The notes under the pieces were generated by a model. The model saw only the letters and a list, made by a program, of their open reading frames with translations, had not been told where the DNA came from and did no database searches. From Candidatus Lachnoclostridium avicola (GTDB lineage Bacteria > Bacillota > Clostridia > Lachnospirales > Lachnospiraceae), in NCBI GenBank assembly GCA_019114465.1, contig DXFM01000048.1:1-64000 (forward strand): 64,000 nt of DNA, written 5' to 3'. The position numbers and the translations under genes were made by a program. Positions 6,530-31,871 of the stretch are shown piece by piece. Position 1 is the stretch's first letter. Each line of letters begins with the position of its first letter.

Positions 6530-6531
6530 TA

Positions 6532-6626: not shown

Positions 6627-6644
6627 CGACGGAAATTCAGCGGT

Positions 6645-6672
6645 CTGCGCCATACGTGGCGCAGATTTTTTT
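6645..6672 (+). terminator. Riboswitch expression-platform terminator
   Basis: CTGCGCCA-TACG-TGGCGCAG followed by ATTTTTTT sits between the TPP aptamer and the thiC start. It indicates transcription attenuation when TPP is bound. Confidence 0.88.
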
Positions 6673-6764
6673 GTAAAAATATCCTGGTTTTGGAAGGTGC
6701 GGGAGAAGGCTGGCGGCGGCGTTTCAGGAGGAGACGGCTCCCCATACAGGAAGGGAGAAACGGT

Positions 6765-14084: not shown

Positions 14085-14113
14085 TTGACTGCCGGCCGGG
14101 GAAGTGTTATAGT
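14085..14113 (+). promoter_or_regulatory. Promoter upstream of the surface-protein cluster
   Basis: TTGACT, a 17-bp spacer and TATAGT. A leader of about 195 nt would separate it from the first surface gene. Confidence 0.6.
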
Positions 14114-14122
14114 GAGAATACG

Positions 14123-14192
14123 ATTCTGGCGGGAGGGTCTTCCTGCTGTTTCACACGATGCAGTCGCATCAGAATTCCAGTTTTTATTTTTT
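14123..14192 (+). terminator. Terminator-like structure in the leader of the surface cluster
   Basis: ATTCTG (14123-14128) pairs with CAGAAT (14170-14175), with an inner hairpin GATGC-AGTC-GCATC. TCCAGTTTTTATTTTTT follows. It lies between the promoter and the first gene, so it could attenuate the cluster. The pairing is partly open and the call is moderate. Nothing else is apparent in the 310 bp between 14005 and 14316. Confidence 0.45.
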
Positions 14193-14315
14193 AATTGAAT
14201 TTGTCTCAGTGGGTCAGTGCAGATGGCGCAGATCTTTTTTGCATTTCATTTTTGTTCATTTTCTGCAGTTTCGCAGACAGTCACCATTGGAAAAATCGGA
14301 AAAAGGAGGATGGAA

Positions 14316-15896
14316 TTGAAGAAAAAACAGGAAAAATCAGGAAGCAGGGGTCTGCTCTGCCTTCTGGCAGGATTTCTGGCATCAGGGCTGTGGTCTGTTC
14401 CGGTCATGGCGGGATGGGAAGGAAACAGCCGGGATGGATGGAGATTGGTGGAACAGGGGGAGGAAAAGAAGAATTCCTGGTACTGGGACGGAGCCTGGTG
14501 GTATCATCTGGGACCGTCGGGGAGAATGGACACGGGCTGGCTTCAGGAAAACGGCCAGTGGTATTATCTTCTGCCGGAACCAGGAGGGCCTGAGGGGAGC
14601 GCGGCCTGGGGATGGAGAGAAATTGAGGGGAAATGGTATTACTTCCATCCGGTTCATGACGGGAACTTCGGGCGTATGGAGGCGGATCTGTGGGTGGACG
14701 GCTGTCTTCTGGGACCGGACGGAGCCTGGACGGGAGAACAGAGGGGAGACGCCGGCCGGAGGAAAACCGGGAGCGGAGCCGGGAGAGCGGGAGCTGGTTC
14801 CGGCGGGAGCAGTTCCCGCCGGGAGGAGGCGGAATCCGCCGGGGACGGAGCCGGAAAGACGGAGCCGGAATCCGCCGCCGGCCAGGAAAAAGCAGAGCCT
14901 GGGGAGGAACAGCCGCCGGCCCTGGAACGGCTGGCCTTCTGGGAGGAAACAGCCGGCCAGGCGGACAGCGAGCTGCTGAAGAAAGAGGTTTTTCCCGGTC
15001 ATGACTGGCTGGTAGAGAACCGGAAGGAGAATGACAGCCGGATCAGCGGGATTCTGTCCGCGGTCAGGGACGAAGAATCCCATCGGTTTTACTTGATCGG
15101 AGTGAATTATCAGCCGGAATCTTTGGTATTCGGCAGCTGGCCGGAATTTCAGTATACATTTCGGGAGGAGGACCGTTTTGAGGCGGGAGGAAACCAGTAT
15201 ACGGTGACTGGGGTCACCGTGAACAAAATTGCCGCTTCGGAGGAAGAACCCGGAAAGAGGCGTTGGAGAGAGGGAGAGATTCAGGAGAGAATGGTGGGCA
15301 GCAGAAAGCTGAGGTTCCGGTGCGTCGACAGTGAATACCGCTCCGGCGGAGAGGTGCTTGCCCTGTTTCTGTGTGAGGAGGTAATTCCGGCGGATGAGGA
15401 CAGCGACGAGTTTGCCCGGAGAGTGCTCTCCTTTGGGGAGAACAGCAGCTATAAGACGTCCCAGGTCCGAAGCTGGCTTCGAGAGAACGGGCGGGATCTT
15501 CGGGAAATCGCAGCGGTTTCCACCGGCGTAACCCGGGCTTATACGGGGGAGACCAGGCCGGGCACCTTTGAGGATCTGGATTTGGATCAGCTGAAGCCGG
15601 AGGAGATCGGAGCCCAGAACATGGAGGACTATTATTTCAGCCTGTCTCTGGAGGAAGCCATCAGGTACCGGGAAGAACTGTGGACTTTTGAGGAGGGAAG
15701 GGGGCCGGAAAGCCAGCTGGGACCCTGCTGTGAGGGATACTGGCTGCGGACCCCAGTGTACGGGGAAGGCAAAGACGGCTTTGCCTACGGTGGGGAAGTT
15801 TACATTGTGGATCTGGATGAGGGATGTATCCGGCCGGCATCGGTGGATCGGACGGACGTGGGCATCCGGCCGGCCTACGGGGCGGTGCAGGAGTGA
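14316..15896 (+). CDS. Secreted cell-wall-binding-repeat protein with a DUF6273-like domain
   Basis: The 526-residue precursor has a signal peptide (KKKQEK start, hydrophobic LLCLLAGFLASGLW, cleavage near VMAG). Residues 45-140 carry aromatic cell-wall/choline-binding-type repeats such as GWLQENGQWYYLLPEPGG and KWYYFHPVHDGNFGRM. A charged Gly/Ala/Glu linker follows. The C-terminal 270 residues resemble DUF6273, with SYKTSQVRSWLREN, GYWLRTPVYG and DVGIRPAYG. GGAGG ends directly before an ATG at 14310, so the TTG at 14316 has the better 6-nt spacing; the two differ by two residues. The function is probably envelope-associated. It is first in a three-gene surface cluster. Confidence 0.8.
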   Translation: MKKKQEKSGSRGLLCLLAGFLASGLWSVPVMAGWEGNSRDGWRLVEQGEEKKNSWYWDGAWWYHLGPSGRMDTGWLQENGQWYYLLPEPGGPEGSAAWGWREIEGKWYYFHPVHDGNFGRMEADLWVDGCLLGPDGAWTGEQRGDAGRRKTGSGAGRAGAGSGGSSSRREEAESAGDGAGKTEPESAAGQEKAEPGEEQPPALERLAFWEETAGQADSELLKKEVFPGHDWLVENRKENDSRISGILSAVRDEESHRFYLIGVNYQPESLVFGSWPEFQYTFREEDRFEAGGNQYTVTGVTVNKIAASEEEPGKRRWREGEIQERMVGSRKLRFRCVDSEYRSGGEVLALFLCEEVIPADEDSDEFARRVLSFGENSSYKTSQVRSWLRENGRDLREIAAVSTGVTRAYTGETRPGTFEDLDLDQLKPEEIGAQNMEDYYFSLSLEEAIRYREELWTFEEGRGPESQLGPCCEGYWLRTPVYGEGKDGFAYGGEVYIVDLDEGCIRPASVDRTDVGIRPAYGAVQE

Positions 15897-15912
15897 AAGG
15901 AGTGGAGAGGAA

Positions 15913-18900
15913 ATGAAACGGAGCAGAAAACGCCTGGCGGCGGTGCTGGTTATGGGCCTGGCGCTCCGCGGAGCGGTCATGGTTTACGGAGATCCGGGAG
16001 CAGAAGGAAAGAATTCCGGGCAGGCGGAAATGGGGGCAGCCACAGAAAGTGAGTGGGAGGAGAAGGCCACTGCCTCCCAGTATGGGATCCGGCTGACGGC
16101 CGGAACAGACACTGAAAATCTGTGGGATGGATGGACGGGAGATTTTTCCTTTTTAAGCGGAGACCGGGGAGACGGGTCAGAAACCAGTCCCTATGAGATC
16201 CGCACCGCGGCTCAGCTGAAGGCCCTGTCCAGACTGGCGGCCATGGGGATGGCCCTGGAGGAGGGAGAGACGGCGGGAGATTACAGAGGCTGCTTCTTCT
16301 CTCTGGAAGCCGATCTGGATCTGGACGGCCTGGACTGGATTCCCATAGGATACGGGGAGGAAGCGGGAGATCCCGGCGGTTTTGAGGGGACATTTCTGGG
16401 AAACGGACACAAAATTTCCGGATTCCGCCTGAAGAGGGAGTTTCCATTCTGCGGTCTTTTCGGCCTGGTCCAAAACGGAAGAATTGAGGATCTCCGGGTA
16501 GAGCCGTCCGGCACCGTGGCCGGGGCGGACCGGGCTGGACTTCTGGCCGGAAAGGCGGAGGATTCGGTGATCTATAACTGCCGCACTGCCGGAGAAATCC
16601 ATGGAGGAAAAGCGGTGGGCGGCATCGTGGGCGAGGCGGAAAATGCCATTGTGGAGGACTGCCTGGCCAGCGCAGTGTTAAACAGCGAAGAAGGAGATTC
16701 CGCAGTGGGAGGAATCGCCGGCCTGGCCGGGGACAGCGTCATTGTGGACGGAGAGGTGTCTACAGGGGACAATCACACCTCGAGAATCCGGGGAAAGGGC
16801 ATAGTGGGCGGCGTCGTCGGCGTGCAGAAAAATTCCAGGATCTACAACGTGCGGGTCACCGGAACCGTGGGCGGGGCCGGGACGCAGACGGCCGGCGGAA
16901 TCACCGGCCGGTTTGCAGGCGGATATCTGAAGGTTGCCAGGTTTGAGGGAACGATGGGAAATTCCGGTCTGGGCGGCCAGGGCCGAAGGGGGACGTTTAT
17001 CGGTTCGCGGGAAGAGGGAGATTACTTCCGCTACGGGGATCAGGTGGCCTATCTGTTTGCGGACAGGGAGGAAAAGATCGCCGCCAATGTGTGCGGAAGC
17101 CAGATCCCTGATGACAACCGCTATGGCTGGGAGGATCACATCGGATATTTTCACCGGGGAGACCTGTTTTTTACCCTGGTTCAGGAGAGCAGGGACAGGG
17201 ACGTGACCGACCGGTATTTTTATCAGGAGCTGGAGGAGGGGATTCTCCAGATTATGGACCGGGATAACGGCGGGGCCCTTCCCTGGGAGTTAGGTTATAC
17301 CATCAACCATTTTGCCGCCAGTGAAGTGGGACGGCCGGTGAGGGGATATCTGGTGACCATCCCGAGAATTGACGCGGCCGGTCTGACCGGCTGGGAGGAT
17401 GTGGCCGTTCTGGAGGCCAGGCCGTCGGGGGCCTACGGGGTGAAAATCGATCAGCTGCACCGGGGAGCGGTGGCCGCCGGGCGGACAGTGACGGTGTACA
17501 CTTCCCCGAAACACACGGACACGGCAAAATTTCAGCTGGAAGGACCGCCGGTGTTTCTGAAGGGAGGGAAAAATGTGGAGATGTCCCGGGGGCTGGCGGG
17601 AGAGTATGTATTTACCATGCCGCCGGAGGATACGGAAATTTCCGCAGTATATACGAAAGTGGCGGCGTCGGTGAGGACGGAGCCGGCCGTCTGCCCCATA
17701 TCCGTGGTTCAGGAGCGGACGGGGGACCGGAGGGATCCGGTGAAGACCACCAGGATCTTTGATCCGTCGGGAAAGCTGATCGCCACCTACATTAACGGGG
17801 AACTGGAGCAGGGGACGAAGGTCCAGCCGGTTTACATCTCCGCGGTGGTGGATGAGAACAACGACGTGTCCGACCCGTCGGTAAAATGGAGTGTGGACGA
17901 CCCGGATCTGATCCGGCTGCGAAGAAGCGGGGAGGAAGATGATCTGGGCTATACGGGAAAGAGCGCGGCCATTGAGGTGAATTTAGATGCCGGGTTTTTC
18001 CGGGATATTCTGGCCAGGGCGGAGGAAGCCCAGGCTCAGACGGGATACCGGGAACCCATCTCCGATGTCGTGTACGGCTACGGCGGACAGGGCGGGGGAG
18101 TGGCAGTTCTCACAGCCTCCACCAGGCCGTCCGCTTCCTACGAGGGGAAGGTCCGAATGGCCAACTGTGACATTCGTGTGACCTTTCAGATTCTGGACCG
18201 GACGGAGACGGCAGTGGAAAGGGTATCCCTGGATCAGGAATCCCTGGAGTTTACAGTGACCAGAAAGATTACCGGCAGCAGAAGCCGGCCGAAGGAGACG
18301 GTGACAGTGACCTCTCCCCAGATTCTTACGGCAGAATTTTCCCCTGGCTATTATTCCAGAAAAGAGGTGGTCTGGACAGCGGGGGAGGATTCGCCGGTGG
18401 AGGTGAGGGCGGAAAATGACAGCTCGGCCCTGGTCACAGCTGTGGCAGACAGAAAGTGGATCCGGGATATTATGGAGGCAGATGACGCCGCCAGAGCCGC
18501 GGGCTCGGCGGAAAGGCTGAAAGGAGCGGGGGAGAAGGCAGGGACGGTGACAGTGACGGCGGAGGACCGGCTGGGAAACAGGCAGACGGCGGTGTGCGCC
18601 GTGAAGGTGCGGTTCGTCACCGATGACCGGACGGGAACCGGCTCCGGCGGCTCGGGAGGTTCCGGCAGTTCAGGAGGCTCCGGCGGTTCCAGTGGCTCGT
18701 CCGGCGGTTCCGGCGGTCCTTCCGGCAGCTCTGCCTCCGGTGCCGGAAGCGCCTCCCCGGGTCCGGGCAGTGTTTCCGGAGAAAACGGACAGGCGGGAAC
18801 AGGGACAGTTCCGGCGGTGGAAGGAACCTGGATTTTGAAGGAGGACGGCCGGTGGATGTTTGAAAGTGGCGGAAAGATTCTCCGGGATGAGTGGGCCTAT

Positions 18901-19218
18901 ATTGTCAATCCCTATGCGGGGGATGGACGGGCGGACTGGTTTTCCTTTGACAGCCAGGGATATATGAGAACCGGCTGGTACCAGGAACCGGACGGAAGCT
19001 GGTTTTATCTTTCCCCGGTGAGCGACGGCTCCATGGGGAGAATGGTGACTGGCTGGAACTGGATAGACGGGGCCTGCTATTATTTCCATCCGGTTTCTGA
19101 CGGTTTCATGGGCAGACTGTGGGTGTCGGAGGCGACTCCGGACGGATATCAGGTGGACAGTCTGGGCCGGTGGGTCAGCTCCGGCCGGGTCATGACCGGG
19201 ACGGAAGGAGCAGCTTAA
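15913..19218 (+). CDS. Secreted GLUG-repeat protein with C-terminal cell-wall-binding repeats
   Basis: The 1,101-residue precursor starts at ATG 15913, behind GGAGAGGAA, with a signal peptide (KRSRKR, then LAAVLVMGLAL). Residues 90-200 contain PYEIRTAAQLKALSRLA, LEADLDLDG and GTFLGNGHKISGF, which commonly lead into GLUG beta-helix repeats. Residues 205-360 carry several GLUG-like turns (GGIVGEAENAIVEDC, GGIAGLAGDSVIVDG, GGVVGVQKNSRIYNV). Ig-like segments follow. A Gly/Ser linker (about 908-956) leads to C-terminal wall-binding repeats (GWYQEPDGSWFYLSPVSDG). The domain plan fits a non-covalently bound surface adhesin. It begins 16 bp after the preceding gene. The ORF track start at 15688 overlaps that gene and adds a non-homologous leader. 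Confidence 0.82.
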   Translation: MKRSRKRLAAVLVMGLALRGAVMVYGDPGAEGKNSGQAEMGAATESEWEEKATASQYGIRLTAGTDTENLWDGWTGDFSFLSGDRGDGSETSPYEIRTAAQLKALSRLAAMGMALEEGETAGDYRGCFFSLEADLDLDGLDWIPIGYGEEAGDPGGFEGTFLGNGHKISGFRLKREFPFCGLFGLVQNGRIEDLRVEPSGTVAGADRAGLLAGKAEDSVIYNCRTAGEIHGGKAVGGIVGEAENAIVEDCLASAVLNSEEGDSAVGGIAGLAGDSVIVDGEVSTGDNHTSRIRGKGIVGGVVGVQKNSRIYNVRVTGTVGGAGTQTAGGITGRFAGGYLKVARFEGTMGNSGLGGQGRRGTFIGSREEGDYFRYGDQVAYLFADREEKIAANVCGSQIPDDNRYGWEDHIGYFHRGDLFFTLVQESRDRDVTDRYFYQELEEGILQIMDRDNGGALPWELGYTINHFAASEVGRPVRGYLVTIPRIDAAGLTGWEDVAVLEARPSGAYGVKIDQLHRGAVAAGRTVTVYTSPKHTDTAKFQLEGPPVFLKGGKNVEMSRGLAGEYVFTMPPEDTEISAVYTKVAASVRTEPAVCPISVVQERTGDRRDPVKTTRIFDPSGKLIATYINGELEQGTKVQPVYISAVVDENNDVSDPSVKWSVDDPDLIRLRRSGEEDDLGYTGKSAAIEVNLDAGFFRDILARAEEAQAQTGYREPISDVVYGYGGQGGGVAVLTASTRPSASYEGKVRMANCDIRVTFQILDRTETAVERVSLDQESLEFTVTRKITGSRSRPKETVTVTSPQILTAEFSPGYYSRKEVVWTAGEDSPVEVRAENDSSALVTAVADRKWIRDIMEADDAARAAGSAERLKGAGEKAGTVTVTAEDRLGNRQTAVCAVKVRFVTDDRTGTGSGGSGGSGSSGGSGGSSGSSGGSGGPSGSSASGAGSASPGPGSVSGENGQAGTGTVPAVEGTWILKEDGRWMFESGGKILRDEWAYIVNPYAGDGRADWFSFDSQGYMRTGWYQEPDGSWFYLSPVSDGSMGRMVTGWNWIDGACYYFHPVSDGFMGRLWVSEATPDGYQVDSLGRWVSSGRVMTGTEGAA

Positions 19219-19281
19219 GGCGGCCGGGGATGAAAAAGAGGAGCGGCGGATGCCGCCGGAAGGTGTACGAGGAGAGAAGAT

Positions 19282-22200
19282 ATGGGTATATGGGGAATAG
19301 TGAGGGGAACATGGAAGAATACAGCCAGGGCAGGAGCCGCCCTGACAGCGGCTTTGCTGATCCTGACAGCCGTTTTCTGGGGCGGGCGGGGAGCGGTGGA
19401 AGCTTCCCAGTCAGATGATGCCATGGCCAAAGGGTATCCCGGCCTGTGTATGGACGGTGTGGGGTATTCTTCCAGAAGTATACGGGCGGGAGGAGATGTC
19501 TATGAGGAGACAGAGGAAGCCCTGGAGACGGGCCGGAACCGGGCGCTGCTGTACTGGGCGTTTATTTCCAATCGGGAGGACGGACAGTCTGCCGGGCAGA
19601 AATACCGGACCTTCCGGGAGACGGTAAACCGCAGGATCCGGGAAGGGGAGAGCGGCCTGCCGCCCATCACCTCCGTCTCTGTGGCGGACATTAAAAAGCT
19701 CATCCATCAGGACCCTCAGGTGGCCGGCCGGTATCCCTGGCTGGAAGCCGCCCTGAAACACCCGGAGGAGTACCTGAGCCTGGGATTGTCCGGCCGGGCG
19801 GCCGGAGCTGAGGAAAAGGAGGTGCCCTCCTGGCTGGCCGGCGCCCTGTCGCCGGATCAGGCCTATCTGCTGGAGGGGGAGGCCGGGCCGGCGGGCTACG
19901 TGCTGTCTGTGGCCGATCAGGGACTGATCGACCAGGCGGAGATCTCCTTTGTGACCGGCGGGGAGGGCTGGAGCTGGACCAAAGGCCCGGGAACGGTCAC
20001 CTTCTGGAATACAGGGGGAAGTCCGGGAGCTGTGGCGGCTCTGGATCTTTCCGGCACTGGATACCGGACAGCCAAAATGCAGTGGCCGGGAAACCGTCTC
20101 TATGAAGACTATATGCACTGGTATACGGTGACAAGGTGCGGGGGAGATCATTTCTTTCAGGGCTACCGGGATGGGGTCTGCCCGCTGGAAAAGCATCAGC
20201 GCCTGTACTCGGCGGAGCTTCCGGACCCGGGAGGGCAGATTCTTTATGTGAAGATGGGGGAAGTTCCCTCCGGATCGGGAGAAAACGGGGAGAAGCTGTA
20301 CAGACATGAGGAAACTTTTACTGCCCACTACACCATAGAGGGAATCAAGAGAGATCATGAGACAGGCAGGCCCCTGGAGGGAGCGCTGTTTCAGGTTTTG
20401 GAATCGTTCCCAGACAGGAATCTGGTAAAAGAGGAAGAAGGAGACGGCGTTCTGTGCAGGGAGAACTGTTCGCCGTCCCCGGCGGTATGGGAAGGATTCC
20501 GCCAGTGCGGCAGCCTGGTGACGGACAAAAACGGCCGGCTGTCCCACACGGATATCCGGACTTACGACTATTCAAAAACTTACTGCGGAGGCCACCCGAC
20601 CCCAGGGTTTCTCCGGATTCCGGAAAAAGACCGGGATCCGGAGACGGGAGAAGTGACCAATCAGGGGGAAATCGACCGGGCCAGAGCAGCCAACGGGGTG
20701 ATGGCAGCCGCGTGGCTGCAGGCCCTGGATGACTGCCGGGAACGGGAGGAGGAAAATCAGGGAAAACATTTTCACTGGATGATCGACAGCGGGGCGGAAG
20801 CGGCGGTGAGGGGAACGAAAGATACGGGGGAGCCCTGCCGGGCGGTGGGAGCTGTCTCTGTGGAGACTGCCTTTGAGAAATCCGGATGCCGGGAAGACTG
20901 TGAAAATTCTTATGAGGCATTTATCAATCTGAAATACAGCTATACCCTGAAAGAGGAGACTGCCAGATCCGGCTATACGGTTCACGGGGCGCACGGAGAT
21001 GACGTGCCGGTGGAGGTGATCACCACCGATTCCTCAGAGGCCGGGGCAAATGAATCCTTTGCCGGAATTTACAGCAGAGATGTGAGCGCGGTCGGGGATG
21101 AGGGGAATTTTTACAGGAAAAATGACACTGGGCAGGAAAAGGAAGCTTCCGTGTCAGACGGAATCTCTCCCCTCCCCGGCGGGGATCCGGAATTTTCCAG
21201 GGAGGAGACGATTTTACCATCCGCCGTTCAAAGTCTGCTGACGGTCCGGTTCCGGCCGGAGACGAAAATTTTAGAGGAGGCAGACAGAGGAAAGGCGGGA
21301 GAAGAGATTTTGACGGCCACTCCCTCGGAGCGGGAGACAGAGCTGCTCCGGGGCACAAGGTCTGAATGGGGAGAAGCAGTTTCCCCGGAAAAAAATAAGG
21401 CCACCCCGTCTCAGTTTTCCATGCCTGCCTCCTTCGCGGGGCAGACAGCCGTCCGGGCGGGGACCTTCTCTGGTGAGACCATTCCCCCAATCCGACTGAG
21501 CAGTTTCCGCCGGGCTGGGGCTGAGGGAGCTGCGGCAGATGGAATCCGCCACCTGGGAGAGGGGGAAGACGGGGAGAATGTCTCCCATGTATTTCAGATC
21601 TACGACCACCGGACGGAAGGGGAGATCCATTTTAATAAGAGAGATCTGGATCTGTACCGGCAGGAGGAGAAGGCGGAGAGCTCTTACGGCCAGTCCCAGG
21701 GGGACGGGACGCTGGAAGGCGCCGTTTACGGTCTTTTCGCGGCGGAGGATATTATCCATCCCGACGGTGGGACGGGGGTGGTCTATGAGAAAGGCAGCCT
21801 GACAGCGGTGGCGTCCACGGATAAAAACGGGGATGGGGCGTTTCTGGTCTATACAGAGGCGCCGGGAACCATATTTTCCTATGAGACGGGAACCATCCGG
21901 CCTGGAACTTTTTCCGGCCCGGACAATCTGTATCACGGGATGGCTTTGGACGATTACATGGGAGACGGGGAAAATGGGACGAGAATTTACGGAGACAACG
22001 AAACTCAGAATGGAAATGTGTGGATCGGCCGTCCGCTGATCATGGGAAAATATGAGATCAGGGAACTTTCCAGATCGGAGGGCTACGAGCTGTCTGTCAA
22101 TGGAAAATCCGGCGCAGTCACCAATTTCGGCGCGTCTCTGGAGACGGAGACAGAGGAGACGGCCGGGACAGCGGTTCTCACCCGTCCGCTGGGGGAAGAT

Positions 22201-25200
22201 GTGCAGACGGACGAGAGCGGGTATGGGGAGCTGGAGTTTGCGGTCCTGTCCAGCGGTACGTCAGCTGCCGGGTACGATATTCTGGTGGAAGGCTACCCGG
22301 AAGGTACGGAATTTTTCCGGGAGGATGAGGGAACGGAAGAGGTATGGATGGAGATTGGAACCGGCAGCTTTGAGAAAATCCTTCTGTGGGAGGATCTCCA
22401 GGAGACTGTTCCCAGATACCGCCGGGCCAGGTCTGACACCAGCGATCCGGTCTATGAAAACGGCCGGCTGAAAACAGAGCTGAGGCAGATGGAGAGAACA
22501 GGGCTGAAGCTGCCTCAGGCAAAAGAGCAGAAGCTGGAGGAAGAAGAGCTGATCAAAATTCTCAGGGGAGAGCCCGGAGAAGATGGGACAGGGGCCTTCA
22601 CAGACGACGAGAAAAACCAGTCTCCGTTTCTTGGAGGAACAGACCAGAAAAATTACATAAAATATAAGCTGGAACAGGCCCTGCGCACCGGAGGCTATGC
22701 CACTCCCCGGGACCGGGAGGGAAGATATTCCACGGAGACCGTCCCGGTTTACGACCGGGGAGTCCGAAAGGGGGAGAAGGATCTTTACGGGATCTCCGGC
22801 TGCCGTCCGGGAGAGCGGGCGGAGAAGACTGTCTGGGGGAGCGCAGTGGCGGACGTGGGTATTTCCGATGGGGAATCCCTCACGGTGGGGGATGTGATCT
22901 GGACGCTGATTTCCTTTTACCGGGAACGGCCCTGGTGGAGCTGCGGAGGTTTGGATGCCGTGGATAGGGAGAACGGCGGCTGGGTCTTCACCCTGTACCA
23001 GTCTGCGCCGGAACTGGGGGATGGATTTTTCGTGGCAGCGGAAGATCAGTCCCTGGCGGAGCGGATCTATCTGCGGAAGGGCTGGGATCCAGCCGATCCG
23101 GAAAAATGTCCCCGCTGGGTGTATGCCGTTTACGGGGCAGCGGAAGATTTTGGCCGGATTCTTCATCAGGAGATGGAGACGGTTTTTGCAGGAGGGGCGG
23201 AGGTGTCCGCCGTCTCCGCTGCCGTGACTCCCGATTTTACCGTGACGCCGGAGGGAGAGCTGAAACCCTGGCTCCAGGAATTTCCCGTATATTATAAAAT
23301 GGGAGAGATTGTGCTGGGGGCGGATGGAAAACCGGAGCAGGACTGGGAAGAACGGGAAGTGACGGAGCGGTTCCTGGTGGAAAAACAGTCGGTCCGGCAG
23401 CAGCGCCTGCCGGCGGAGTATGACAGGGAAACGGGAGTATACCGGATCCATGTGGATACGGCAGGCACTGACAGCTTCGGCCGTCCCCTGGAGGATGGGG
23501 AAGGAGCGGAACTTCTTTTCCGGGCGGTGACTCCGGAAAAAGAGCGGACGCTGACCGGAGAGGATATTCAGCGTCTGAAAGAGAACTGGATGGGATGGAA
23601 GGCCGGAGATACTGTGGGATACGGCCGCTACCTGCTTCAGTCGGGGGCGGAGGTCCGGGTGGTTTTGAGCGGAGACCGGGGGGAAGAGCCGGGGGATCAC
23701 ACCTTCATTCAGAGAGCGGAGCTTCAGTCTCAGGATCAGGAGGTCCCGTGGGAGGACGGGGGAACCAGGACCGAACCGGTGCAGGTTCTGGAACGGCCCA
23801 TCCGCCAGAAGGTCCGTATCCGGAAAACCATCGCCTCCCATGAGGACAATACCTATCCGGTACCGGAGCCGTCGTCTCTGCCGGGATTTCAGTTTAAAAT
23901 CTATCTCCGCTCCAACCTGGAGCGTCTCTGCCGGGACGGGGAGGGAAATATCGTCTTTATTGACCGGAACGGCCGGCGGGAAAATCCCCTGGATGACGGG
24001 TTTCACGGCCTGGTCTGGGAGGAGTCTGCGGCGGTGCCTCAGCTTTACACCAGGATTTCCCACCGGGAAGATTCTCTCACCGCTGGTCCGGTGAGCAACA
24101 ATGTGAGGGCGGAAGCGGTAAATGCGGCGGAGAGACTGTACCCTTACGACGGCGGCCTTCTCCGGGACGAGCCGGAGTCCGGCTATGTCCGTCTCCTGGA
24201 ACCAATGCGTTCCGAACCGGGGGAAGATTTGCCCGAATCCCCCGGGGGAGAAAGGATATACAATGGGGAGACCGTATATAATTATGAAAAGTTTTTTGAC
24301 GGGATCCGCGGGGCAAACGAGGTCAAATGGGACCGGGATTCAGAGGACGGGGCTGAGTATGAGGAGTGGATCCGCCAGTTCGCTATCCGGTGGTACCTGG
24401 ACGATGAGGTAAAAAAGCGGACCAGGGATAACGGGATGGGCCTGAGGGAAGGAGCGGAGGGAGCTTCCGCCTCACAGATGGAAATTCACGACCAGGCTCT
24501 GGCGGAGGCCCGGAAAAAGGCGGAAAACTATCTGAAGCCGTTTCTGGACTGGGATCTGGATGAGATCTGCGCCGTTCCCTGGGATGGCGGCGACGGCGGG
24601 GAGGACAAAGATCTGACCACCCTGACGGCGGACCAGCCGGACGGGAGCGGGTATTATACCGGCGTTTCCCGCTATCTGCCCTACGGAGTCTATGTGATCG
24701 CGGAGCAGATCCCCGGGGCCGGACAGTTCCGGCAGAAGCACTACGAGGCGGATCCGCCCAGGGAAATAGTCCTGCCCGCGGTTCTGGACGGGGAAGGGCA
24801 GCCGGATCACCGATATGACTATGATCCGGAGCTTTCCCTGGAAAACCAGGCGGCGGATTTTCACATCCGTTTTGGAGAAGAGTGGGGAGAAGGATGGAAA
24901 ACCGGCCATGTGATCCAGGCCCACAGCGGGGACGGAGATTTTGAGGTCTACAAGTTCGGCCTGGAACCGGACCGGATCCAGGGAGAGGAGTGCCTGGGCT
25001 ACCGGGTGACCCAGGCGGAATTTAAGCCCTTTAAAGATCTGTACAGCTGGGAAAATGTGAACAGCCGCTACCACAATGAGCGGGTGGGAGAGTACTATCC
25101 CTACGGATCTCTGTCGGAGGACGGGAGAGTGGAGCATGGAATCCGCCTGATGCTGGGATCCCTGACAGCCAGAGAAGGGGAGTACGCGCCGGCTCTGGTT

Positions 25201-28200
25201 CCGTGGACTGTGAGGGAGCCGGCAGGATCCTGGGATACCGGCCCCTTTGTGGGCTATGCCTCCCAGATCCGGAAGAACCGGCTCTACCGCAGCGTTCTGC
25301 GCATTGAAAAGACAGACCGGGAAACCGGCGAGATGATTCTCGGGGACAGCGGCGCATTTGCCCTGTACCGGGGCCTGCGCCGGGAAGACGGAGAGGGGGA
25401 AGCCCTGTTTTATGAGGAGGACACGGTGATCTCCGGTTCCAGGGAATTTCTGGAGGCCATGGGAGCCCGGCAGATCACTCCCGCGGCACGGGAAGATCCG
25501 CCTTATCTGGGAAAATACTATGGCACCGTTCCTGAAGGGACTCCCATATGCCGGGAGGAGGATTTGGTGTCCATGACGGATGAACTGGGAAAGAAGACCG
25601 GAGAGTTTCTGGCTTTTTCCACAGTCAGAGATGGGCGGATGCCGGATGAGGAAGGAAAGGATCTCCTATGGGCGGACCAGAATTCCGGTTATGTCCGGCT
25701 GCTCCAGCCTCTGGGAGCGGGAGTGTATGTCCTGGCGGAGCTGCGTCCGCCGGCGGGATATGTGAGAAGCCGGCCGATTGCGGTGGAGATTTATTCAGAC
25801 CGGGTGACCTATTACCGGGATGGAGAGCGGGAGCAGAAGACCGCCGCCTGGAAGTATGAAAGCCGGGAGGAATCGCCGGTTTCTCAGGGAAGTCAGGCGT
25901 CAGCCGCGGCGGAAAAGAGCGGGCCGGATCTGGTTAGAATTCCCGTGGAAAATCAGCCGGTGCGGCTGACGGTGGAAAAAAAGAAAGGGGTCCAGGAACA
26001 GGCGCAGACAGTTCTGGACGGCCGCGTCACCGGAAGCCTGGGAGAGCTGAACGGGAAATACGGCCTGGAAAACCTGGAGCTTGCCTTCAACGCTTCCGGT
26101 ACCTATCTGGGATATGGCTGGAAGAAGGGCTTTGTGGAAGAACTGGAAGGACTGAGGGCGTCAGGGACGGATGTGGAGCTGATCTATGAAGACGGGGTTT
26201 TCTCAGGGAGGGCGAAGCTGTCCCGGAAAGTGGACCAGCCCCAGTCTTTGGATTCCTGGCTTCCGGGAGCGGAATTGACCCTGCTTGAGGGAATCCCCCT
26301 GAAAGAGAGCGGGGAGACAGAGGATCTTCGGTATGAAGGGCTGAGAATCCTTCGGGGAGAGGACGGAAACGTGTCCCGGATGTATGTGGAGAAAGGATAC
26401 GGGGGAGAGCGGCTGGTCTTTGTGAAGGACAGGAGCAGTCCGGAAAAGGATCCGGAGGAAACCGCTATGGAATATTCTTTCCGTCAGCAGGAGGACGACC
26501 GGGGAGAGGGAACCTGGACGGTTAAGCGGGCCTGGCGGGAGGACACGGACATTTTATATTACCGCCTGGACAATCTGTCAGTGCTGCGGCGGCAGAAAGG
26601 CCGAATTTTGGGCTATGACCGGAACGGGGCGGAGGCAGGCGTAAAAAACGGGGAGTCTTCCTTTGCCTTAAAGGACGGACGCCTGTTTCTGGAGATCATC
26701 TGTCCCGATTATGAGAATTTAAATTACAATTCCAGCGACCATGTATTCGACGCTGTGCCGGAGGGCACGGTGATGTACCATCTGGATGAAAACGGAAACC
26801 GGGACAGCCTGGTGGATCCCTATACCGGGATGGCCTATGTGGAAAACCCGGAGGGCGGCGTCATGGTGTGGCCGGTCCGATTCCCGGAGGGAAAAGAAGA
26901 ACCGGCAGAAAAAATCAGAACCTTCCGGATCGCCGCCCCCAGGACGGAGGAGGGACGGACCTACACCGTCGGTACCTACGGCAGCGATGACAGGGGAGAA
27001 AAACGCCTTCTGTGCCGGGTAAATCCTGCGGTGGACGAGCACGGTCTGCCGGTTTTCTATCAGAAGTCGGAGGAATCCTTCGAAAGGGGATCGCCTGTTT
27101 TTGACCGGGACGGAGATTTTCTCTGGTGTTGGCCTGATCCCGCCCTGGAGCAGCAGAACCGGAACGGATATGAGATTCATTCATCGGAGGAGCTGAATCA
27201 GACCGGGAGGAGTCTGTACCGGCGCCAGGGGGAGAGTTTTCTCATGGAAAATACCTGGCGGACCGGGGACCAGCAGGTAAATGATCCCTTTGCAGAGACC
27301 ATAGGCCCCGGCCAGGCGGATGTGCTGGAGCGGATCATGCCTGGGAGTTATATTCTGGAGGAGAAAACTCCGCCGGCAGGCTGGACCAAAGGACTGCCCC
27401 AGGCGGTGACGGTGAAGGAGAGCCTGGAGAATCAGACCATTTCCGTGGAAAACTCCCCCACCAGGGTCCTGATCTGGAAAATTGACGGGACGGAGAACTG
27501 GCGGACGGAGGTGGAGGATCTGTCCGGGATTTTGGCTGAGCCGGAATACCGGATCAGCAGAAAAGGGAGCTACCGCTTTGACTCGGTGGCCGGCGCGAAG
27601 CTGGCCCTGTATCCGGCCAGGAAAGTGTATGAACCGGGCGGGGAATTTCGGTATGAAAAGACCTCTGAGAAGCCCATCTCCTGGACGTCGGGGACAAAGA
27701 ATGGAAAGGAGGAGCGGACGGCCGCAGTGTGGGAGAGCGGGAAAGAGCCGAAGATGTTGGAGGGAATTCCGGCGGGAATCTATCTGCTGGAAGAGACGGA
27801 CACTCCCCCGGGATATCTCCCCGCATCCATGCCGGTGGAAATCCGCCCTTCCGGGGAGCTGCAGTATTTCAGCCTGAAAAACGATCACACCAGAGTGGCG
27901 TTTTTCAAGTACATAAATGAGGATGGCACCCTCACTTCCCTGACAAACCGGAACCGGGCGGAGTTTTCCCTGTATCCGGCGAGGATGGATGAGGAGGGAA
28001 CTGTGCAGAGGGCAGAGGATGGAACTCCTCTCTATGACCCCGGCAGTCCGGTGGAAGTCTGGCAGACAGAGGACTGTCTGGAGTACACCAAAACGGTGGA
28101 TACCCGGAAGTATGGAGAGAGCACGGTATTTTCCAGGTTCCTTTCATGGCTTCAGGAGCTTGCGGGCGTGGGGGATCGGTATCTGACCGGCTTTACCTGG

Positions 28201-30852
28201 GACTATGAGAAGCTGTTCGACGAGTACGGAACGGATTTTGACGTGGTATCCTGGAAGGAGGAGCGGACGGCAGTGCGCAGCTCTGTCCATGACCGGGTGT
28301 GGCTGTCCCCGGAGGGAGGCAGAATCGTCACCGGCGGCGGGGAGATCCTGTATCCGGAGGATATGGATGATACGGACCGGAAAGAGTTTGAGAAAGAGCT
28401 GAAGGGGGGAGAGGACCGGCAGGAGCTTTCCTGGCTGAGAGAACGGCAGGCACACCGGATCGCATCAGAAGAGACGGAGGGAAAAGAGCGCGTTGTTCAG
28501 ATGTGGGAGACGGACAGCGGGGATATGATCCGCGTCTGTTCGGGACGGAACCTGCTGAATGCGGGGGAACCCTCCCATGACGGAACCTACGGGGACGGAC
28601 GGAGTTTCGGGAGAACCTTTGAATATCAGTTTCACTACCGGGAATTTCCGGTGGGAGACGGGACTATGGCGGTCAGTTACAATATGGCGGACGGAGGACA
28701 TTACCTGGAACGGCTTCCCTCGTCGGGGGAAGAAAAGGGAAGCGGCTGTTACGTGCTGGCGGAGACCGGAACTCCGGAAGGTATGATCCCATCCAAACCC
28801 GTTCTGGTGGAGATCCGGGAGACACCGAAGCTTCAGATCTGCTCCGTGGAAAACAGGAGGCGCTGTGTGCTGGCGGACAAGCAGGGGACAGACGGCCGGC
28901 CGGTGGAAGGAGCGCTGCTGGGCCTTTACCGGGCGGACGGGCAGGGAATGCCTGTTCTGGACGAAGAACATCTGGTCACCAGCTGGAGATCAGGAACGGA
29001 CGGGGTCTACAGCCGGCGGGAGAAAGAAGAGGGAACTATCCCAGAGGGGAGAGCGGAAGGAGATCTTCGGCCTCACCGGATCGAAGGGATTGAAGAAGGA
29101 GAATATTATCTGGCGGAGCTGGAGGCACCGCCCTATTACCGGAAAATGGAGCCGAAAAAGCTGATGATTCTGGGAGAGGAGACGGAGCTTATCAGGGGAG
29201 TCAATGAGATCAAGCTGGGACGTCTGGAGGTTGAAAAGGAGGGAGAGGACGGCCGCCTTCTGGCCGGAGCGGAATTTACTCTGACCAATGAGGAGACGGG
29301 GGAAGTCCGCCGTCTGGTCACCGGGGTGGATGGAAAGGCGTCTGCTTCCGATCTGATTGTGGGTCTGGCAGGAGAAGGCGGAGCGGTAACGCCCTGTACC
29401 TACCGGCTGGAGGAGACGGTTCCGCCGCCATTTTATCAGAAGTCCCGGGAACCGCTGCGGTTTTCCTTTGAAGACGGGGAGGAGGCGGAGCTTTTCCGGA
29501 GCCTGAGAGTGGAAAACAGGCAGACGGAATTTGAGATTTCAAAGACGGATGCAGGTTCCGGGGCGCCGGTAAAAGGGGCGCTGCTGGAAATTTACCGGGC
29601 GGTGGGGACATCGGAAGGATTGGAAAGGGAAGGAGAAGTCCTGGACACCTGGATCTCCGATGGAAGCCCTCACAAGATCCGGGGAAAGATTTCCGGAGGA
29701 GAATCCGCCATTTTGGCGGAGAAGAAAACGCCCGCTGGACGGATGCCGGCGGAGCCGGTGGCATTTACCCTGTCGGCGGACGGCAGGGAAGTGGAGCAGG
29801 TGGACTGCGGCTTTGCCAAAATCTCCGTTGCCGCAGATGAGGACTCCGGCGGCAGAATTCTGGAGGTGAAGGGACGGCAGCCGGAATCTGCAAAACGGCA
29901 GACCACCTGTGTGCCGGAAAACGGGGAGGCTGAAGAGAACAAAAACCTGTACCGGATCCAGGAGAAAGTGCTGTATTCAGATGGCAGGGAAGAACGGACC
30001 TCCTCTGTGCTGGTGAGAATGGAAAAGGGAGAGCGGGAGGCAGCGGAAGCCAGAGAGCCTGTGTACACGGAGCTTACGCTGGCCGGGGAGGATGAGGGCC
30101 GTTTCTGGCGGTGGAGACCCGGCGGGGACGGGAAAGATTCCTGGAAGCTGTCCGGGAAAGAGGAGAACGGCAGTCTTCCAGGCGGCGTGTTTGTGCTGAA
30201 GGAAACCACGGTGTTTTCCGACGGCACGGGAATAGTGACAGGCACATTCGCATTTCGCCTGGATGAGGACGGCCGCCTGACCGAGCTGATGCTTCCCAAC
30301 CGGGAGACCGAGCTCTCCATATGGAAGCAGACCGCAGACGGCCGGGGGCTGCCCGGCGCCCTGCTTTCCCTGAACCGTCAGGACGGGACCAGGGTGGATC
30401 GCTGGATCTCCGGCGGCGGGCCCCACAGAATACAGGGAAAAGCGGAGCCGGGAGAGCTTCTGATATTGGAAGAGCTCCGCCCTCCCGCCGGATATGAGAG
30501 GGCAGCCCCCATGGCGTTTCAGGTACTGGAAGATGGACGGGGGGAACTGGTGATCATGAGAGACCAAAAGCTGCCCGGGGACGGGGGAGAAGGGACGGAC
30601 GAAAAAGAACCGGATGAAAAAGAACCGGAACAGCCGGACCGGGCGAATCCGCCGGAAGAGAGGGCGGAAGAGGAAAATTCGGGTGAAACGGTGGGCAGAA
30701 TCCTGGCCTGTTATCCCCGGGACAGGAGAGAAATGCGGCGCGGCCTTCCCCCTTTGGGGGAGACGGCCGGACGCCTTCTTCCTCTCCTGGGAACAGGAGC
30801 AGGTCTTCTTCTGCTGGCATATTTCTTCGCCGGCAGGGGTAAAAGAAAATAG
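19282..30852 (+). CDS. Giant SpaA/Cna-B-type surface protein (3,856 residues)
   Basis: The protein has a signal peptide (residues 1 to about 41) and an N-terminal region with GLCMDGVGY and ALLYWAFIS, which could be a divergent thioester-type adhesin domain (uncertain). Many SpaA/Cna-B-like modules follow, recognised by their closing strands: YEIRELSRSEGYEL, YVLAELRPPAGY, YILEEKTPPAGW, YLLEETDTPPGYL, YVLAETGTPEGM, YYLAELEAPPYY, YRLEETVPPPFY, ILAEKKTPAGRM, and LILEELRPPAGY. The Glu in the LEE/LAE strand is the usual isopeptide catalytic residue. An acidic Pro/Glu spacer and a C-terminal anchor follow: LPPLGETAGR, a hydrophobic stretch, and RGKRK. The motif is not a canonical LPXTG. No sortase is encoded nearby. 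The start follows GAGGAG. It is likely a long stalk-like adhesin. Confidence 0.88.
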   Translation: MGIWGIVRGTWKNTARAGAALTAALLILTAVFWGGRGAVEASQSDDAMAKGYPGLCMDGVGYSSRSIRAGGDVYEETEEALETGRNRALLYWAFISNREDGQSAGQKYRTFRETVNRRIREGESGLPPITSVSVADIKKLIHQDPQVAGRYPWLEAALKHPEEYLSLGLSGRAAGAEEKEVPSWLAGALSPDQAYLLEGEAGPAGYVLSVADQGLIDQAEISFVTGGEGWSWTKGPGTVTFWNTGGSPGAVAALDLSGTGYRTAKMQWPGNRLYEDYMHWYTVTRCGGDHFFQGYRDGVCPLEKHQRLYSAELPDPGGQILYVKMGEVPSGSGENGEKLYRHEETFTAHYTIEGIKRDHETGRPLEGALFQVLESFPDRNLVKEEEGDGVLCRENCSPSPAVWEGFRQCGSLVTDKNGRLSHTDIRTYDYSKTYCGGHPTPGFLRIPEKDRDPETGEVTNQGEIDRARAANGVMAAAWLQALDDCREREEENQGKHFHWMIDSGAEAAVRGTKDTGEPCRAVGAVSVETAFEKSGCREDCENSYEAFINLKYSYTLKEETARSGYTVHGAHGDDVPVEVITTDSSEAGANESFAGIYSRDVSAVGDEGNFYRKNDTGQEKEASVSDGISPLPGGDPEFSREETILPSAVQSLLTVRFRPETKILEEADRGKAGEEILTATPSERETELLRGTRSEWGEAVSPEKNKATPSQFSMPASFAGQTAVRAGTFSGETIPPIRLSSFRRAGAEGAAADGIRHLGEGEDGENVSHVFQIYDHRTEGEIHFNKRDLDLYRQEEKAESSYGQSQGDGTLEGAVYGLFAAEDIIHPDGGTGVVYEKGSLTAVASTDKNGDGAFLVYTEAPGTIFSYETGTIRPGTFSGPDNLYHGMALDDYMGDGENGTRIYGDNETQNGNVWIGRPLIMGKYEIRELSRSEGYELSVNGKSGAVTNFGASLETETEETAGTAVLTRPLGEDVQTDESGYGELEFAVLSSGTSAAGYDILVEGYPEGTEFFREDEGTEEVWMEIGTGSFEKILLWEDLQETVPRYRRARSDTSDPVYENGRLKTELRQMERTGLKLPQAKEQKLEEEELIKILRGEPGEDGTGAFTDDEKNQSPFLGGTDQKNYIKYKLEQALRTGGYATPRDREGRYSTETVPVYDRGVRKGEKDLYGISGCRPGERAEKTVWGSAVADVGISDGESLTVGDVIWTLISFYRERPWWSCGGLDAVDRENGGWVFTLYQSAPELGDGFFVAAEDQSLAERIYLRKGWDPADPEKCPRWVYAVYGAAEDFGRILHQEMETVFAGGAEVSAVSAAVTPDFTVTPEGELKPWLQEFPVYYKMGEIVLGADGKPEQDWEEREVTERFLVEKQSVRQQRLPAEYDRETGVYRIHVDTAGTDSFGRPLEDGEGAELLFRAVTPEKERTLTGEDIQRLKENWMGWKAGDTVGYGRYLLQSGAEVRVVLSGDRGEEPGDHTFIQRAELQSQDQEVPWEDGGTRTEPVQVLERPIRQKVRIRKTIASHEDNTYPVPEPSSLPGFQFKIYLRSNLERLCRDGEGNIVFIDRNGRRENPLDDGFHGLVWEESAAVPQLYTRISHREDSLTAGPVSNNVRAEAVNAAERLYPYDGGLLRDEPESGYVRLLEPMRSEPGEDLPESPGGERIYNGETVYNYEKFFDGIRGANEVKWDRDSEDGAEYEEWIRQFAIRWYLDDEVKKRTRDNGMGLREGAEGASASQMEIHDQALAEARKKAENYLKPFLDWDLDEICAVPWDGGDGGEDKDLTTLTADQPDGSGYYTGVSRYLPYGVYVIAEQIPGAGQFRQKHYEADPPREIVLPAVLDGEGQPDHRYDYDPELSLENQAADFHIRFGEEWGEGWKTGHVIQAHSGDGDFEVYKFGLEPDRIQGEECLGYRVTQAEFKPFKDLYSWENVNSRYHNERVGEYYPYGSLSEDGRVEHGIRLMLGSLTAREGEYAPALVPWTVREPAGSWDTGPFVGYASQIRKNRLYRSVLRIEKTDRETGEMILGDSGAFALYRGLRREDGEGEALFYEEDTVISGSREFLEAMGARQITPAAREDPPYLGKYYGTVPEGTPICREEDLVSMTDELGKKTGEFLAFSTVRDGRMPDEEGKDLLWADQNSGYVRLLQPLGAGVYVLAELRPPAGYVRSRPIAVEIYSDRVTYYRDGEREQKTAAWKYESREESPVSQGSQASAAAEKSGPDLVRIPVENQPVRLTVEKKKGVQEQAQTVLDGRVTGSLGELNGKYGLENLELAFNASGTYLGYGWKKGFVEELEGLRASGTDVELIYEDGVFSGRAKLSRKVDQPQSLDSWLPGAELTLLEGIPLKESGETEDLRYEGLRILRGEDGNVSRMYVEKGYGGERLVFVKDRSSPEKDPEETAMEYSFRQQEDDRGEGTWTVKRAWREDTDILYYRLDNLSVLRRQKGRILGYDRNGAEAGVKNGESSFALKDGRLFLEIICPDYENLNYNSSDHVFDAVPEGTVMYHLDENGNRDSLVDPYTGMAYVENPEGGVMVWPVRFPEGKEEPAEKIRTFRIAAPRTEEGRTYTVGTYGSDDRGEKRLLCRVNPAVDEHGLPVFYQKSEESFERGSPVFDRDGDFLWCWPDPALEQQNRNGYEIHSSEELNQTGRSLYRRQGESFLMENTWRTGDQQVNDPFAETIGPGQADVLERIMPGSYILEEKTPPAGWTKGLPQAVTVKESLENQTISVENSPTRVLIWKIDGTENWRTEVEDLSGILAEPEYRISRKGSYRFDSVAGAKLALYPARKVYEPGGEFRYEKTSEKPISWTSGTKNGKEERTAAVWESGKEPKMLEGIPAGIYLLEETDTPPGYLPASMPVEIRPSGELQYFSLKNDHTRVAFFKYINEDGTLTSLTNRNRAEFSLYPARMDEEGTVQRAEDGTPLYDPGSPVEVWQTEDCLEYTKTVDTRKYGESTVFSRFLSWLQELAGVGDRYLTGFTWDYEKLFDEYGTDFDVVSWKEERTAVRSSVHDRVWLSPEGGRIVTGGGEILYPEDMDDTDRKEFEKELKGGEDRQELSWLRERQAHRIASEETEGKERVVQMWETDSGDMIRVCSGRNLLNAGEPSHDGTYGDGRSFGRTFEYQFHYREFPVGDGTMAVSYNMADGGHYLERLPSSGEEKGSGCYVLAETGTPEGMIPSKPVLVEIRETPKLQICSVENRRRCVLADKQGTDGRPVEGALLGLYRADGQGMPVLDEEHLVTSWRSGTDGVYSRREKEEGTIPEGRAEGDLRPHRIEGIEEGEYYLAELEAPPYYRKMEPKKLMILGEETELIRGVNEIKLGRLEVEKEGEDGRLLAGAEFTLTNEETGEVRRLVTGVDGKASASDLIVGLAGEGGAVTPCTYRLEETVPPPFYQKSREPLRFSFEDGEEAELFRSLRVENRQTEFEISKTDAGSGAPVKGALLEIYRAVGTSEGLEREGEVLDTWISDGSPHKIRGKISGGESAILAEKKTPAGRMPAEPVAFTLSADGREVEQVDCGFAKISVAADEDSGGRILEVKGRQPESAKRQTTCVPENGEAEENKNLYRIQEKVLYSDGREERTSSVLVRMEKGEREAAEAREPVYTELTLAGEDEGRFWRWRPGGDGKDSWKLSGKEENGSLPGGVFVLKETTVFSDGTGIVTGTFAFRLDEDGRLTELMLPNRETELSIWKQTADGRGLPGALLSLNRQDGTRVDRWISGGGPHRIQGKAEPGELLILEELRPPAGYERAAPMAFQVLEDGRGELVIMRDQKLPGDGGEGTDEKEPDEKEPEQPDRANPPEERAEEENSGETVGRILACYPRDRREMRRGLPPLGETAGRLLPLLGTGAGLLLLAYFFAGRGKRK

Positions 30853-30897: not shown

Positions 30898-31122
30898 TCA
30901 GTTGTGATAATAATTATTTTCCGGATCCAGCTTTACTTCCATGACATCCTCCACATTACATCTGAGAATGTTGCACAGCATATCAATGGTATGTGTGGAA
31001 ACGTACATATTTTTCTTCAGTCTTCCAATCTGTCCGGCGCTGACACCATAGTATTTGATCAGGCGGTATTGGCTGATATTAGACCGTTTCATGGTTTCCC
31101 ACAGCCTGTCATAACTGACCAT
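30898..31122 (-). CDS. Small XRE-type helix-turn-helix regulator
   Basis: This 74-residue protein has a lambda-repressor-like fold: YDRLWETMKRSNISQYRLIKYYGVSAGQIGRLKKN, then TIDMLCNILRCNVEDVMEV. On the minus strand, AAAGGAG lies 8 nt before the ATG at 31122. Earlier ATGs at 31128 and 31161 are too close to, or upstream of, that site. The gene and its flank are more AT-rich than the rest of the window. It is convergent with the giant surface gene and faces away from the candidate RNA; a regulatory link with either is possible but not shown. It is a single-domain DNA-binding protein with no partner toxin visible. Confidence 0.82.
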   Translation of the reverse strand: MVSYDRLWETMKRSNISQYRLIKYYGVSAGQIGRLKKNMYVSTHTIDMLCNILRCNVEDVMEVKLDPENNYYHN

Positions 31123-31403
31123 CTGCATCACTCCTTTTATGACTATTAAACCGTTATTCACCGTATATGTACATTATCCAAAACTGGAACAGGGACTGAA
31201 AAAACAAGGAAAATACGGGAAAAAACGGCCCTGGGAAAGGTGCTGGAAATTATTTCCAGCAGCCTGTTTCCGGGGCGGAAAAAGAGTGCATTCCAGGACA
31301 GTGGAAAATGCAGATAATTTTTATAATAATTTTAAAAATTCTAATAACAATAGAAAATTAGAAAATATAGACAAATAAAAATTGAAATAAATCCAAAAAA
31401 GTA
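31123..31403. other. AT-rich non-coding stretch
   Basis: About 280 bp contain no convincing gene. The ORF at 31139-31378 lacks a ribosome site and a domain. From 31310 to 31403 the sequence is extremely AT-rich (runs such as TAATAATTTTAAAAATTC), and it directly precedes a consensus promoter. It may act as an UP-like element for that promoter. Confidence 0.5.
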
Positions 31404-31432
31404 TTGACAAATTCTGCTACATAAACTATACT
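31404..31432 (+). promoter_or_regulatory. Strong promoter of the candidate ncRNA
   Basis: A perfect TTGACA, a 17-bp spacer and TATACT, preceded by an A/T-rich tract. Confidence 0.8.
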
Positions 31433-31438
31433 GAAGAT

Positions 31439-31846
31439 ACCAAAAGAGAAGAGAGATTAGAAGATGAGAAAAAGAAACGACAAAAAATAAAAAGGAAAGG
31501 GTGAGACCGCCGGGCACGTAAATATCGTTTCACTTTCTGATCCCAGATGTGACAGAAAAGCGGAACAGAGGAAACCTTGGAATCCGAAAGCGGATAAGAT
31601 GGAAAAGGACAGGAACCTGCAGTGAGAGATGTTTTTCTCCGGTTGCCGTATGACGAGAAAGTACAGTGACAAGACGAGAGGTCTGCAGGCAAGAGAATGA
31701 AAGATGTCAGGAAAGCTTAAAACGCGCGGAGGAAGAGAAAAGTTCATAGGAAAAACAGAATAAAGAAAGGAAATCAGTCCAATGGATGAGATAGTTTAAG
31801 GGCGGATGTCGAAACAGTGAAGATTCGATATCCGCCTTTCCTTTTG
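31439..31846 (+). ncRNA. Candidate structured non-coding RNA, about 400 nt
   Basis: A consensus promoter and an intrinsic terminator bracket about 400 nt of purine-rich sequence with no convincing ORF. Local pairings are visible: CTTTCTG (31533-31539) with CAGAAAAG (31553-31560, one bulge), a perfect ATCCG-AAAG-CGGAT hairpin (31582-31595), and CCTGCAG (31616-31622) with CTGCAGG (31683-31689), enclosing about 60 nt. It does not show hallmarks of RNase P RNA, tmRNA, SRP RNA or a riboswitch that I know. Two tiny frames with plausible ribosome sites (MRKRNDKK at 31464 and a GTG frame at 31501) leave a leader or small-peptide explanation open. Confidence 0.5.
31801..31846 (+). terminator. Intrinsic terminator of the candidate ncRNA
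   Basis: GGCGGATGTCGAA and TTCGATATCCGCC form a 13-bp stem with one G-T pair. TTTCCTTTT follows on the plus strand. Confidence 0.82.
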
Positions 31847-31871
31847 CTCTGTTTTCCACACCTTCCGCTTT

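Follow-up and report, generated by a model that had tools for sequence, protein, structure and literature searches.

The window, that is, the whole stretch of DNA analysed, comprises 64,000 nt of Candidatus Lachnoclostridium avicola (GCA_019114465.1, contig DXFM01000048.1, positions 1 to 64,000, forward strand). It contains three consecutive genes on the plus strand, ORF1, ORF2 and ORF3, and each of the three products begins with a hydrophobic, signal-peptide-like segment. The features of the cluster are listed below; ORF3 and its homologues are referred to as giants.

14085..14113 (+): sigma-70-like promoter, TTGACT-17-TATAGT with an extended -10 (consensus scan, 10/12)
14310..15896 (+): ORF1, 528 aa; the ATG at 14310, after AGGAGG, is the best start
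15435..15875 (+): DUF6273-like domain of ORF1, residues 376-522 (Pfam 0.0021; matches of relatives)
15913..19218 (+): ORF2, 1101 aa
18934..19128 (+): wall-binding repeats of ORF2, residues 1008-1072 (Pfam)
19282..30852 (+): ORF3, giant surface protein of 3856 aa
19402..20295 (+): thioester-like domain of ORF3, residues 41-338, assigned as a diverged class II TED (chain of profiles)
19447..19449 (+): codon of Cys56, the predicted thioester Cys (identical in 67/67 giants)
20197..20199 (+): codon of Gln306 (HQRLY), the predicted thioester Gln (identical in 67/67 giants)
20293..21081 (+): first CnaB-type module, with a helical insert, K356/E558 (conservation, AF2)
21604..22086 (+): second CnaB-type module, K786/E928 (Lys/Glu position)
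23824..30564 (+): stalk of ten CnaB units, D3-D12 (K-E-N/D triads, SpaA Pfam, SpyCatcher match)
30745..30849 (+): predicted C-terminal anchor, consisting of LPPLGE, a hydrophobic helix and an RGKRK tail (sequence)

ORF1 and ORF2 are separated by 16 bp, ORF2 and ORF3 by 63 bp. The earlier note had given these gaps and the gene coordinates correctly (stops at 15896 and 19218, starts at 15913 and 19282). Position 14085, from which it counted the cluster, coincides with the -35 box of the highest-scoring promoter match upstream, and this promoter was the sole plus-strand match of at least 10/12 ahead of the operon in a consensus scan. No plus-strand terminator-like site was found by consensus scan in either gap of the trio. 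Joint expression of ORF1, ORF2 and ORF3 appears plausible and, because the promoter and terminator calls come from consensus scans, joint transcription is put no higher than that.

Further features were observed in the window. Directly downstream of the giant gene lies a convergent ORF of 74 aa on the minus strand (30898-31122; translation beginning MVSYDRLWETMKRSNISQYRLIKYYGVSAGQIGRL), which reads like a helix-turn-helix protein of the Cro/C1 type; its DNA is 85-94% identical in three relatives and is conserved more than the giant. A candidate unannotated noncoding RNA of about 400 nt (31404-31842, plus strand) has a promoter match (TTGACA-17-TATACT, 11/12) and ends in a 16-bp terminator-like hairpin. 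The candidate had no match in Rfam, and in a fold of three sequences, too small a set for a judgement, 14 of 60 pairs were changed on both sides. DNA from 31300 to 31850 is matched, in full or in part, in each of the eight other genomes of this genus, several of which lack the trio. A TPP riboswitch (6530-6638, plus strand; Rfam RF00059, 64.3 bits) lies upstream of the gene at 6624-8072.

A search for ORF2 over genome contigs yielded 77 loci. Order and strand of the trio were kept in 61 of the 65 loci with enough flank, with a DUF6273 gene upstream and a giant downstream of ORF2, and the trio was found across Lacrimispora, Hungatella, Enterocloster, Lachnoclostridium and others. Synteny, which the earlier note had named as a test of its reading, is thus conserved far beyond the genus. 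The median gaps across loci were 42 and 94 bp, some loci carrying extra genes between ORF2 and the giant. Among 51 loci, the pairwise distances of the three proteins were correlated (0.92, 0.63 and 0.57; shuffled maxima at most 0.17), which shows that the block is inherited together; the statistic does not distinguish joint function from common descent of linked genes. At the level of sequence, the case for a conserved, co-inherited gene cluster is strong. A homologue of the giant N-terminus was present in 25 of 397 sampled genomes of the family (20 genera).

In many relatives, the gene inserted between ORF2 and the giant encodes a secreted protein in which choline-binding repeats and a Cys motif like that of transglutaminases are common (for example L168:13828-14724, L116:13780-14769 and L140:13384-14544). 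The inserted protein of L168 matches Pfam Transglut_core (1.7e-10), and others have similar C-x-G-F/Y motifs. The locus of genome G002 (L111:14586-18641) adds a small secreted protein of the SYFTN type, TasA/camelysin-like by eye and with no Pfam match, together with a leucine-rich repeat protein of the BspA type and a protein of 531 aa that carries wall-binding repeats; genome G080 has a similar gene set. At loci L185-L187, the DUF6273 protein extends to about 2,100 aa, the homologue of ORF2 to some 2,750-3,490 aa. Two further loci, L175 and L184 (one on a Lacrimispora xylanisolvens chromosome, one in a draft), carry an ORF2 homologue and a giant split into several frames, which suggests that in some strains the cluster is decaying.

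ORF1 consists of the signal peptide, choline-binding-type repeats (about residues 44-113), a linker, an alpha/beta domain and the C-terminal DUF6273-like domain. The repeats matched Choline_bind_3 (2.6e-8; 34.1 bits, Pfam cutoff 27). The DUF6273 match of ORF1 itself lies under the Pfam cutoff (0.0021; 18.4 bits vs 23.5), though 33 of 34 aligned members of the ORF1 family match the domain at E 0.01 or better (best 3.8e-11). Hence, we regard ORF1 as a divergent DUF6273 relative, and the description of the protein as wall-binding repeats joined to a DUF6273-like domain holds. The repeats are optional on ORF1 homologues (29 of 66 DUF ORFs). An AF2 model of residues 196-528 showed ordered domains (pLDDT 92.6). 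A fold search with ORF1 against the PDB gave nothing convincing, no match having an E below 0.1; a search against viral models returned one 1436-aa protein (E 6e-5), and a profile search against PDB sequences found no meaningful relatives. In phage tentaclins, DUF6273 domains form the receptor-binding heads, and their model resembles C-type lectins (PMC10743442). This likeness suggests that ORF1 may add a non-covalent binding function. The tentaclins and the N-terminal domain of the M64 IgA peptidase ThomasA (PMC12402451) belong to the same Pfam family as ORF1, but ORF1 differs from both in being a predicted wall-bound bacterial protein encoded in an operon, and the lectin-like fold of the tentaclins was not confirmed by the ORF1 fold search.

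ORF2 comprises the signal peptide, a GLUG region, a long middle region and C-terminal choline-binding-type repeats. Both domain matches are over the Pfam cutoff (Glug 2.4e-7, 31.1 bits vs 20.5; Choline_bind_3 4.8e-7, 30.1 bits vs 27), in agreement with the earlier assignment of GLUG-type repeats joined to wall-binding repeats. The N-terminal half with the GLUG region shows sequence similarity to the N-terminal part of IgA1 proteases (1.3e-15); a catalytic peptidase domain was not matched in ORF2 by domain search. In some relatives, the middle region contains Big_2. The wall-binding repeats are nearly constant on ORF2 homologues (73 of 74). LicD-family genes, which can put phosphocholine on the wall, number two in the genome studied and are present in all genomes of the genus, so that choline-type wall binding of ORF1 and ORF2 is plausible. 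Both proteins resemble choline-binding proteins with repeats of the PspA/PspC type in that Choline_bind_3 is matched over the cutoff. They differ from them in the displayed domains, which are DUF6273-like and of the GLUG/Big type, and in that choline binding is putative.

ORF3 carries a series of CnaB-type domains. SpaA (PF17802) was matched over eight stretches (1.6e-49, Pfam), the last CnaB unit matched SpyCatcher/FbaB CnaB2 (1.4e-5), and by position there are 12 CnaB-like Lys/Glu pairs, ten of them followed by Asn/Asp. CnaB-type domains, whose absence the earlier note had named as refuting its reading, are present, and the earlier count of at least nine isopeptide-like units, correct as to the kind of domain, was too low. 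The triads of the stalk run from K1515/E1808/N1855 to K3682/E3731/D3761. For units D1 and D2, no Asn/Asp could be located in ORF3; units D3 and D10 have one that varies among giants. In ten units, both Lys and Glu are aligned in 20 or more of the 21 full-length giants; the other two units are absent or altered in some. These 21 proteins, with lengths of 3,410-5,268 aa, form a colinear alignment in which 369 positions reach a conservation of 90% or more. Judged by this alignment, the giant has a fixed-order architecture, unlike repeat stalks of freely varying copy number. Like the SpaA/CnaB pilins and the CnaB2 domain of FbaB, from which SpyCatcher is derived, ORF3 has the CnaB fold with Lys-Glu-Asn/Asp; unlike the pilins, it is a single giant chain in a cluster without genes for pilin polymerisation.

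At the C-terminus, the clade of ORF3 has L in place of T in the LPXTG position, the signals reading LPPLG in ORF3, LPGLG in genome G001 and IPKLG in G004. Several giants of relatives have a canonical [IL]PxTG[DE], others only a membrane helix. No sortase is encoded near the trio; three sortase matches (PF04203) in the same genome lie on contigs C46 and C38, the trio being on contig C27.

The first CnaB-type module contains a set of Cys and His residues (module residues 338-600). Among 67 giants, H342, C435, H438, C485, H568 and H571 are conserved in 100% and H498 in 99%. AF2 pLDDT is above 90 over most of this module, the larger model of residues 41-880 having ordered domains with a mean pLDDT of 77. 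Across 391 genomes of the class, full-length matches to the Cys/His module were found only in ORF3 and one related giant. Our guess is that the Cys/His set stabilises the tip, by way of a structural metal ion or a disulfide.

Ahead of this module lies the thioester-like domain. Its only near-invariant residues are Cys56 and Gln306 (67 of 67 giants each) and Trp230 (97%). According to PMC6194298, TEDs share no universally conserved residues other than the Cys and Gln that form the bond; the Cys sits in a [YFL]C(hydrophobic)(hydrophilic) motif and the Gln in a weaker one, (hydrophobic)Q(hydrophilic)(hydrophobic)(hydrophobic). The context of Cys56, LCMD, fits the former. That of Gln306, HQRLY, was counted as fitting the latter, though the residue before the Gln is His and not hydrophobic. 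The motif TQXX(hydrophobic)W, of which neither the Gln nor the Trp is required to form the bond (PMC6194298), is missing in the clade of ORF3, and a similar AQTAVW occurs in relatives such as L148. Consequently, ORF3 is treated as a TIE-like variant and not as a typical TIE member.

The assignment of this domain was approached through a series of profiles. Lachnospiraceae TEDs, defined as proteins of the family that pass the Pfam TED cutoff, gave a profile that matched the solved SaTIE-TED (6fx6) with an E of 3.9e-17. In HHalign comparisons, these TEDs matched L148-clade giants at 91-94% over about 220 columns and L168-clade giants at 93.5%, and the L148-clade giants in turn matched the clade of ORF3 at 89.6%; three unrelated control profiles reached at most 0.9%. 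The profile alignments set the TED Cys and Gln onto the Cys and Gln of the giants. A direct comparison of the Lachnospiraceae TEDs with the clade of ORF3 was weak (3.5%), and the assignment of the ORF3 tip is transitive for this reason. No giant reached the Pfam TED cutoff. Searched by fold against the PDB, the model of residues 41-880 returned only weak matches to CnaB pilins, with no TED among the best 50, and a profile search with the giant N-terminus against PDB sequences found no meaningful relatives. By the chain of profiles, the N-terminus of ORF3 is predicted to be a diverged class II TED. This thioester-type domain is the main clue to function. The earlier picture of the giant as an isopeptide-type protein stands as far as the CnaB domains are concerned; it overlooked both the tip, with which the giant is more than a simple stalk, and the invariant Cys/His module.

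ORF3 is probably an extra-long covalent adhesin of the TIE type, with ORF1 and ORF2 as its co-inherited, predicted wall-bound partners. Sequence homology, residue conservation, gene order and co-inheritance were computed directly, and isopeptide and thioester formation, wall binding and adhesion are predicted by analogy with known families. ORF3 would be exported by Sec and anchored by its C-terminus. Its approximately 12 CnaB-type domains, in most of which Lys, Glu and Asn/Asp are placed as for spontaneous isopeptide bonds, would build a long stalk resistant to force and proteases, and this stalk would hold the N-terminal thioester domain of class II at a distance from the cell. There, an internal thioester between Cys56 and Gln306 would react with an amine on the target surface and tether the bacterium covalently. 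Candidate targets are glycoproteins of the host mucosa or of food, and neighbouring cells; the identity of the target, like physical contact between the three proteins, is a guess. ORF1 and ORF2 would be co-produced, secreted and kept on the wall by their choline-binding-type repeats, most likely aiding display or adding secondary non-covalent binding, and the Cys/His set of the first CnaB module would most likely stabilise the tip.

The TIE proteins BaTIE, SaTIE and EfmTIE86 (PMC6194298) share with ORF3 the Sec signal, the N-terminal TED (predicted in ORF3) with its Cys motif and weak Gln motif, the CnaB isopeptide domains that follow and a C-terminal anchor, which in ORF3 is likewise predicted. 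They have three to five isopeptide domains (PMC6194298), whereas ORF3 has about 12 CnaB units in fixed order over 3856 aa. ORF3 further differs in its diverged TED without TQXX(hydrophobic)W, its unique Cys/His module, the L for T in its sorting signal and its fixed partnership with DUF6273 and GLUG/wall-binding proteins. Open-licence literature on DUF6273, SpaA-type proteins, the combination of GLUG and choline-binding, and TEDs in Lachnospiraceae yielded no account of the cluster. Its components are all of known kinds; of their conserved association as a trio, of the giant's length and fixed unit order and of the Cys/His module, this literature likewise gave no description.

Other readings of the locus were weighed. 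The tip or other sites of the giant might react with ORF1 and ORF2 on the cell's own wall, giving a self-assembled, cross-linked coat. This would fit the co-inheritance of the three genes, the near-constant wall-binding repeats of ORF2 and the transglutaminase-like gene with the same repeats that several relatives insert between ORF2 and the giant. That gene, however, is absent from the cluster studied, and the TEDs described so far have external targets (PMC4450167); we consider such a coat quite unlikely. Equally improbable in our estimate is that the tip has lost its thioester chemistry in the clade of ORF3, leaving the giant as a non-reactive stalk beside adhesive ORF1 and ORF2. The loss of TQXX(hydrophobic)W and the weak direct match to the TED profile are what one would then expect, but Cys56 and Gln306 have stayed identical in every one of the 67 giants despite the divergence of the rest of the domain.

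The remaining two readings were dropped. That the giant is a pilin within a sortase-polymerised pilus is very unlikely: SpaA-type domains are present and NCBIfam SpaH/EbpB was matched (1.6e-5, far below the family cutoff), but the sortases of the genome lie on other contigs and none within the cluster, the giant is several-fold longer than known pilins and encoded by one gene per cluster, and several giants of relatives lack any sorting signal. We rejected the pilus operon because the cluster has no sortase. Just as unlikely is a mobile-element adhesin aiding conjugation, for which PMC8092201 provides a precedent, a class II TED adhesin with a reported conjugation role in Bacillus subtilis. 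The trio is flanked here by housekeeping genes (enolase, EFR1 ferredoxin, AzlC, FtsH and DnaE), a scan of the ten flanking ORFs turned up no gene for conjugation, and this reading was set aside on account of the flanks.

An extension of the favoured reading, the TIE-type covalent adhesin, is that the trio forms a multi-protein covalent adhesion machine of the Lachnospiraceae, in which the family-specific Cys/His module, as a metal or redox module, controls the adjacent tip and which works only with both wall-bound partners. We think this extension rather unlikely in full.

Giant CnaB proteins of gut Lachnospiraceae are usually labelled generically as pilin-like. ORF3 resolves such a label into a conserved fixed-order architecture, a predicted covalent tip and conserved partners. 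Should the chemistry prove real, attachment via covalent bonds would be shared by many commensal species of the gut, and the Cys/His module would offer a direct handle on the stabilisation or switching of the tip.
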